IMG/VR virus record: IMGVR_UViG_3300008262_004495
Span: 1-20,265 of that record
DNA: 20,265 bases
Strand: one strand, 5' to 3'
Source of the DNA: a virus
The position numbers and the translations under genes are program-made. Below, piece after piece: positions 125 to 459 of this stretch. The first letter of the stretch is position 1, and every line of letters begins with the position of its first letter. The notes under the pieces were generated by a model. That model made no database searches. It worked only from the letters and a program-made list of their open reading frames with translations, and was not told where the DNA came from.

Positions 125-195
125 TTTGGTTCAGAATGATTTTTTTTCCAAAGTTGCAATTTTGTTTAGTTTGCTGAACTCATTCTTTATAACCA
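125..195. ncRNA. Candidate Y-like structured RNA element, copy 1
   Basis: TGGTT (127-131) pairs with AACCA (191-195), and AGAATG (133-138) pairs with CATTCT (181-186). Between the two helices one C (132) is unpaired on the left strand, and TTAT (187-190) is unpaired on the right. The loop of about 42 bases ends in TTTGCTGAACT, a stretch also found in copies 2 and 3. Which strand is transcribed is unknown; read on the plus strand, the bulged C lies on the 5' side, as in Y RNAs. That it is an RNA is inferred from the repeated architecture. Confidence 0.4.
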
Positions 196-201
196 GTAAA
201 A

Positions 202-268
202 TGTCGGGATAGGTTTTTCAAAATTCCTATAATTTGATTTTTAATTTGCTGGAACTATCCCTTGTACA
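202..268. ncRNA. Candidate Y-like structured RNA element, copy 2
   Basis: GGGATAG (206-212) pairs perfectly with CTATCCC (255-261). Below this helix a single C (205) faces TTGT (262-265), and TGT (202-204) can pair with ACA (266-268). The base pairs differ from those of copies 1 and 3 but the bulge plan is the same, so pairing rather than sequence is kept. TTTGCTGGAACT precedes the right arm, matching the other copies. The lower stem is short, so this is the weakest copy. A competing hairpin, ATAGG with CCTAT, is also possible inside it. Confidence 0.38.
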
Positions 269-321
269 ATATATAACGTAAAATTAGATAAAAAGTTTCA
301 TTAAGTCAAGAAAAAAATAGG

Positions 322-459
322 AAAAATTGGTTTCAGAATGGGGTTTGGTTAAAAATTTATCTCCTTGGTGGGAGAAGTGAGTTTAACCATCTCGATCCTA
401 GTTATTGAATTAGATTTGTAGTTAGGTTTGCAGGAATCATTCCTTATAAACCAATTTTT
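322..459. ncRNA. Candidate Y-like structured RNA element, copy 3
   Basis: The largest copy. Twelve bases at 322-333 (five A, then TTGGTTT) pair perfectly with 448-459. GAATG (336-340) pairs with CATTC (438-442). Between the helices C334 (next to an A335/C443 mismatch) faces TTAT (444-447). The interior can form further helices: GGTTAAA (347-353) with a matching TTTAACC near 381-387, a nested TCTCC/GGAGA hairpin, and CTAGTT with AATTAG. The right arm ends in five T, as at the end of a small polymerase transcript. The element lies just after the stop of the Ro-like gene. An alternative local hairpin (425-452) could act as a terminator. Confidence 0.42.

Follow-up and report, generated by a model that had tools for sequence, protein, structure and literature searches.

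Three minus-strand hairpins beside a divergent Ro60-type gene of a virus: probable Y-RNA-like RNAs from a widespread CAGCAA hairpin family

In the Rsr/Y RNA particles of bacteria, the protein holds the base of the RNA, and the role of the loop is variable. Bacterial YrlA RNAs (RF02553) are encoded beside a Ro60-fold protein and combine a stem formed by the ends of the RNA with a variable apical module. Vertebrate Y RNAs (RF00019) are also hairpins paired through their ends and belong to Ro biology. Here, three RNA-like elements were analyzed in a virus record of 20,265 bases (IMG/VR, IMGVR_UViG_3300008262_004495; the whole record, hereinafter the window). The elements (128–461) are located directly 3' of a gene encoding a Ro60-like protein (468–1871), on the same strand, and share with YrlA the position beside a Ro60-fold protein. 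They are most probably small non-coding RNAs of the minus strand and Y-RNA-like partners of this protein.

Some jumbo phages encode a TROVE protein (PMC7824862), and a Ro60-like open reading frame has been mentioned together with phage YrlA (PMC7765460). A literature search, whose coverage did not include reviews on bacterial Y RNAs, found no published CAGCAA RNA family. A similar architecture has been described for the Class I RNAs of Dictyostelium (RF01414), in which a short compensated stem joins the ends, the remainder is variable, and an 11-nt motif with nearly invariant T3, C6, C9, A10, and A11 adjoins the 5' stem (Kjellin et al. 2021, PMC7919456). According to the same work, the RNAs start with AAG and end with CUGU, are absent outside dictyostelids, and have an unexplained function.

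The protein encoded at 468–1871 (minus strand, 467 amino acids) is, according to profile matches and a structure model, a divergent Ro60-type protein. This assignment is based on Pfam and PHROG matches, on the similarity of the predicted fold to TROVE and Rsr, and on an invariant DxSGS sequence. Pfam analysis detected the DUF2828 and DUF7788 domains (PF11443 and PF25043; E 3e-34 and 2e-51), the latter being a vWA domain with DxSGS, and PHROG analysis detected phrog_850, annotated as “RNA-binding protein” (E 5e-152). In the AlphaFold model built from 28 relatives (predicted local distance difference test, pLDDT, 78), the N-terminal part is helical and the C-terminal part is vWA-like, which corresponds to the helical-repeat ring and vWA domain of the Ro60 fold. 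A fold search of the Protein Data Bank (PDB) with this model gave two matches with E < 1e-3, namely, TROVE (9kop, 2.7e-8) and Deinococcus Rsr/Ro60 (2nvo, 3.8e-8). The metal-site residues D-x-S-G-S of the vWA domain are invariant across the 28 relatives. Neither the TROVE nor the Ro60 vWA model of Pfam was found above cut-off (vWA_Ro60 E 0.09, TROVE absent). The domains found instead are DUF2828 and DUF7788, and the protein is treated as belonging to a sister family that shares this fold but has diverged.

A preliminary description of the locus, made from the letters of the window, had noted three copies of a hairpin with a single C opposite TTAT or TTGT and an upper helix, and all of them are present. 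In plus-strand letters, copy 1 is GGTT-C-AGAATGA (128–139) / TCATTCT-TTAT-AACC (180–194), copy 2 is TGT-C-GGGATAG (202–212) / CTATCCC-TTGT-ACA (255–268), and copy 3 is GGAAAAATTGGTTT-C-AGAATG (320–340) / CATTCC-TTAT-AAACCAATTTTTCC (438–461). The shared TTTGC(T/A)G was likewise found at 170–176, 245–251, and 427–433 and reads C(A/T)GCAAA on the RNA strand. On the minus strand, element 1 (128–194) consists of an outer helix (128–131/191–194), AUAA (187–190) opposite G 132, a core stem (133–139/180–186), and the CAGCAAA motif (176–170), with CTTTTTAATTAA after the element. Element 2 (202–268, minus) has an outer helix of 3 bp, ACAA opposite G, a core stem (206–212/255–261), and CAGCAAA at 251–245. 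Element 3 (320–461, minus) is distinguished by an outer helix of 14 bp (320–333/448–461) and an apical domain of ~100 nt; it has AUAA opposite G, a core stem (335–340/438–443), and CTGCAAA at 433–427, with TATTTTTTT after the element.

The order of parts on the minus strand is lower helix, AUAA or ACAA, core stem of 6–7 bp, 3–4 nt, C(A/U)GCAAA, loop, second stem strand, G, and second strand of the lower helix. The core hairpin has the general form 5'-AA, stem of 6–7 bp, 3 nt, CAGCAA, variable loop, second stem strand, (U)G, and the bulges mark its base. Core lengths are 54–56 nt for elements 1 and 2 and 109 nt for element 3 (the Class I range is 42–65 nt). The single C had been compared with the bulged C of Y RNAs but is not the bulged C of vertebrate Y RNAs: on the minus strand, it becomes a G, which belongs to the conserved (U)G at the 3' end and faces AUAA at the foot of the core stem. 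What counts most among the conserved parts is C(A/T)GCAAA, the motif adjoining the upper helix.

All three copies are kept in the relatives examined. The statement that the paired bases change together applies to the upper helices: a core stem pair of element 2 is G-C in the window, G.U in relative L001, and A-U in the group of relative L008. The lower helices were rejected as a covarying part; no variation is seen among the relatives in those of elements 1 and 3, and the 3-bp helix of element 2 is lost in the L008 group. Covariation was further analyzed in 25 orthologous hairpins picked by their 5' sequence. These are 98.5% paired, with compensatory change at 3 pairs (16 cells; 0/500 shuffles), and versions with a slid alignment reached no more than 60.5%. 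In 55 diverse hairpins, pairing was 89% (a value inflated because a stem was required at selection), all 7 of 7 pairs were compensatory, and slid versions did not exceed 48%.

A covariance model (R1) was built from the 55 hairpins, which come from other phages and bacteria. The window and its close relatives contributed no training sequence, and one sequence was taken from the contig of a distant relative, L029. Searching both strands of the window with R1 gave element 2 as the best match (202–266, minus, 37.8 bits, E 2e-5) and element 1 as the second (129–191, minus, 34.6 bits, E 9e-5); the third-best match (E 0.055) is within a gene. Of the six phages with a DUF2828 gene that were not represented in the training set, five have R1 matches (KVP40, S13, Aeh1, FADO, and Lak-B9; not D490), compared with 0/5 phages without this gene. 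Selection on structure, as proposed earlier, is well supported: the structure is above chance, which folding energy alone would not show, but which is evident from the conserved position of the hairpins and from their covariation in phages and bacteria.

Isolated phages that infect a wide variety of hosts have hairpins with the stem and CAGCAA close to their DUF2828 gene. Aeromonas phage LAh_9 contains at least five upstream of the gene, Felix O1 has four among the tRNAs after it, P100, Lumos, and PEF1 have three each, Campylobacter phage F355 has two, and Fnu1 has one besides a second cluster of four. Across seven whole phage genomes, the stem was present at 22/25 CAGCAA sites near the Ro-like gene vs. 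37/415 elsewhere, which corresponds to an odds ratio of 75 (p 2e-18). With permuted words, values did not exceed 2, except for two words that overlap the motif. Among viral contigs, all 26 of the 26 Ro-linked GGTTCCTTACAGCAA sites are hairpins, and 0/22 non-hairpin sites are Ro-linked. Eighty contigs of bacterial genomes with DUF2828 genes, some possibly prophage or misbinned phage, were not used for motif finding; they yielded 85 sense vs. 8 antisense hairpins at 40/80 loci.

The likeness to the Ro-binding helix of Y RNAs, suggested in the preliminary description, is well supported and was proposed there with no mention of the neighboring gene for a Ro60-fold protein; no Y_RNA or YrlA match exists in the window. 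An Rfam scan of the window gave 0 matches at the gathering cut-off and, at E <= 10, just weak matches of Dicty Class I, one snoRNA, and one SAM-II. Neither the YrlA covariance model nor a tRNA-like module was detected in the three elements. With vertebrate Y RNAs, too, the elements have no Rfam match, and the bulge geometry and conserved bases of those RNAs are presumably unlike those found here.

In other members of the family, the YrlA model matches sequences within long-loop hairpins of Enterococcus phage PEF1 and mycobacteriophage Lumos (E 7.5e-11, 2.4e-7, and 1.1e-8 per genome, below the Rfam cut-off). The PEF1 alignment shows a T-arm followed by a D-arm, the module typical of YrlA, with the ACAGCAA stem outside. 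Since the long loops of PEF1 and Lumos enclose the YrlA matches, one base appears to carry short loops in most members and a Y-RNA module in some. As judged from these sequence matches, the YrlA-like modules tie the CAGCAA hairpin family to Y RNAs. The YrlA model itself ends ...GCGAAUGC / ACUUGUCGC..., which is absent here, where the signature is the stem with ACAGCAA; because the two stem signatures differ, the CAGCAA base is regarded as a distinct docking base. As a separate observation, element 3 of L008, and also of L009–L011, L013, and L014, includes a stretch (GGATAGGTTCAAACCCTGTCACCC, Ro-sense strand) that resembles the T-arm/3' half of a tRNA and is missing in L012 and in the window.

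With Class I RNAs, the family shares the short end-joining stem of varied but compensated sequence, the motif beside the 5' stem with its spacing, and, for elements 1 and 2, the size of ~55 nt. The phage consensus NCUUACAGCAA fits positions 2–11 of the amoeba motif, which we take to be CCUUACAGCAA, a form supported by the RF01414 matches; L029 and others contain CCTTACAGCAA exactly. The five nearly invariant positions are all present in elements 2 and 3, and four of them in element 1 (G at position 3). AAG starts and CUG(U) ends occur in many phage members and are frequent, not general, in CAGCAA hairpins: the full AG...CUG at the stem base was found in 21/43 phage, 12/85 bacterial, and 5/32 far hairpins (3 of the 5 in the Fnu1 cluster). 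In the window, element 1 has these ends, element 3 has them partly, and element 2 lacks them.

Analysis using RF01414 revealed weak matches with element 1 (132–185, minus, 22.8 bits, E 0.07) and element 2 (208–254, minus, 16.9 bits). In a search extended to 15 whole phage genomes, the best matches adjoin the DUF2828 gene in LAh_9, Felix O1, P100, and Fnu1; lower-scoring matches were obtained in F355, PEF1, and FADO. By our own count, ~17/46 matches lie within 2 kb of a DUF2828 gene in sense orientation, with an estimated <1 expected by chance. The best phage match (29.8 bits) is below the gathering cut-off of 41.5 bits, and in the control phage T4, which has no DUF2828, a 24-bit match was found within a coding gene. 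RF01414 alone was thus rejected as proof of homology, and the link with Class I RNAs is based on the position of the matches. Further differences are the eukaryotic promoter (DUSE) and the known binder Rnp1A (RRM) of the amoeba RNAs, the long apical domains of some phage members, and the published absence of Class I outside Dictyostelia. Class I RNAs could, as a tentative reading that we hold slightly short of likely, be the eukaryotic branch of the phage and bacterial family, i.e., Y-RNA-type ligands of DUF2828-type Ro proteins, by common inheritance or by transfer among phages, bacteria, and amoebae. Convergence on one binding motif is also possible.

The proposed role is as follows. The elements would be made together with the Ro60-like gene or just after it. 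The Ro-docking part would be the invariant base (AA, stem of 6–7 bp, ~3 nt, CAGCAA, and (U)G at the 3' end). By holding the stem, the CAGCAA, and the ends, the protein would leave the loop free to vary in role. The effector part would be the interchangeable apical region, which is a short loop in the first two elements, measures ~100 nt in element 3, and is a tRNA-like YrlA module in some other phages. A single protein gene accompanied by several RNAs that differ in their loops fits such interchangeable adaptors. From the analogous Rsr/Y RNA particles of bacteria, we infer that the bound RNA may gate the RNA cavity of the protein and link it to nucleases or substrates, which for the phage might result in an RNA quality-control or RNA-degrading particle.

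Several results weigh against the interpretation of the elements as Ro-bound RNAs of this family. Element 3 was missed in the window search with R1, presumably because of its long loop, the training hairpins being short-looped. Folding z values on the minus strand are −0.3, −0.1, and −5.1 for elements 1, 2, and 3, i.e., the stability of elements 1 and 2 is not above that of shuffled sequence; minimum folding energy, uninformative for these two, was dropped as evidence. The scan used detected no element at 40/80 bacterial loci, and the YrlA matches of PEF1 and Lumos are subthreshold. In KVP40, S13, Aeh1, D490, and pEa49, the best matches are kilobases from the gene, that of KVP40 being within a tRNA array, which indicates that adjacency to the gene is not universal.

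The same interpretation is opposed by a view of the hairpins as parts of the Ro-like mRNA that act in cis (protein-bound feedback sites, or 3'-UTR (untranslated region) processing or stability elements) rather than free RNAs. At many loci, the hairpins do stand directly after or before the gene in sense orientation. However, they also occur at a distance from the gene, within tRNA arrays or clusters of other kinds (KVP40, pEa49, the second Fnu1 cluster, and the L029 contig), their arrays reach seven or more hairpins, and some enclose tRNA-like modules, so this explanation is unlikely. Transcription terminators or generic stem-loops after the gene would account for the minus-strand T runs after elements 1 and 3, but this reading is very improbable: the loops measure 30–110 nt, and it is already contradicted by the conservation of CAGCAA next to the stem and by the arrays upstream of the gene in many phages and bacteria.

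The RNA strand is almost certainly the minus strand, i.e., the sense strand of the Ro-like gene. The G.U intermediate of element 2 pairs only on the minus strand, giving an A.C mismatch on the plus strand. Within 600 nt downstream of the gene, non-redundant relatives contain [AT]GCAAA 121 times in sense vs. 6 in antisense (upstream, 26/28), and every significant R1 match in the window and relatives is on the Ro-sense strand. Promoter-like sites within 1–2000 were found on the minus strand only. One (TTGACA-17-TATACT, 1898–1926) is upstream of the Ro-like gene and faces the gene and the RNAs; a weaker one (TTGACT-16-GATAGT, 475–502, 9/12) is within the 3' end of the gene, just ahead of element 3. 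Both were recognized solely by the consensus. Although either strand can fold, the plus-strand orientation written in the preliminary description was rejected on the G.U/A.C evidence, the sense bias, and the independent R1 matches, the promoter-like sites agreeing, and there is next to no chance that it is correct.

The data describe a widespread RNA family with a sequence signature, which is not in Rfam as such. Its phages include Felix O1, P100, Campylobacter, Enterococcus, Fusobacterium, mycobacterial, and jumbo phages, and its bacterial contigs belong to Clostridia, Akkermansia, Elusimicrobia, and Chloroflexi. The likely protein partner is annotated merely as DUF2828 or “RNA-binding protein”. 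This suggests that Ro/Y-RNA-like particles with interchangeable apical modules are common phage equipment, and it offers a candidate answer to the question of what binds the abundant Class I RNAs of amoebae.

Several further hairpins were observed. An unannotated Class-I-like hairpin match is present within the tRNA array of KVP40 (AY283928, 176661–176727, minus; L140). In Fusobacterium phage Fnu1 (125000–127000, L149), the second array of four CAGCAA hairpins follows a tRNA array and adjoins YrlA-like matches, far from the DUF2828 gene. Erwinia phage pEa_SNUABM_49 (301500–308500, L148) contains at least nine arrayed CAGCAA hairpins with a YrlA-like match, 200 kb from the DUF2828 gene. In addition, an RNA-like domain of 181–259 nt is conserved downstream of the Ro-like gene at L029:4509–4754 and 25 further loci (e.g., L025, L032, L058, and L071). 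It starts with TACAGCAAA, is closed by GGATCG/CGATCC or the compensated GGATAG/CTATCC, has no significant Rfam match, and looks like a large-loop member of the CAGCAA hairpin family.

As for other genes nearby, a tRNA gene whose anticodon, as read by eye, is TTG (Gln-like) is located just past the left end of the window in relatives, on the same strand (L002:4967–5039 and L008:5012–5084). The window also contains host-like genes encoding a small zinc peptidase (M54-like, 2300–2890), an IMP dehydrogenase/GMP reductase-like enzyme (12998–14029), DnaK/Hsp70 (17025–18884), and a protein resembling class II tRNA synthetases, which may be asparagine synthetase A (19173–20006).
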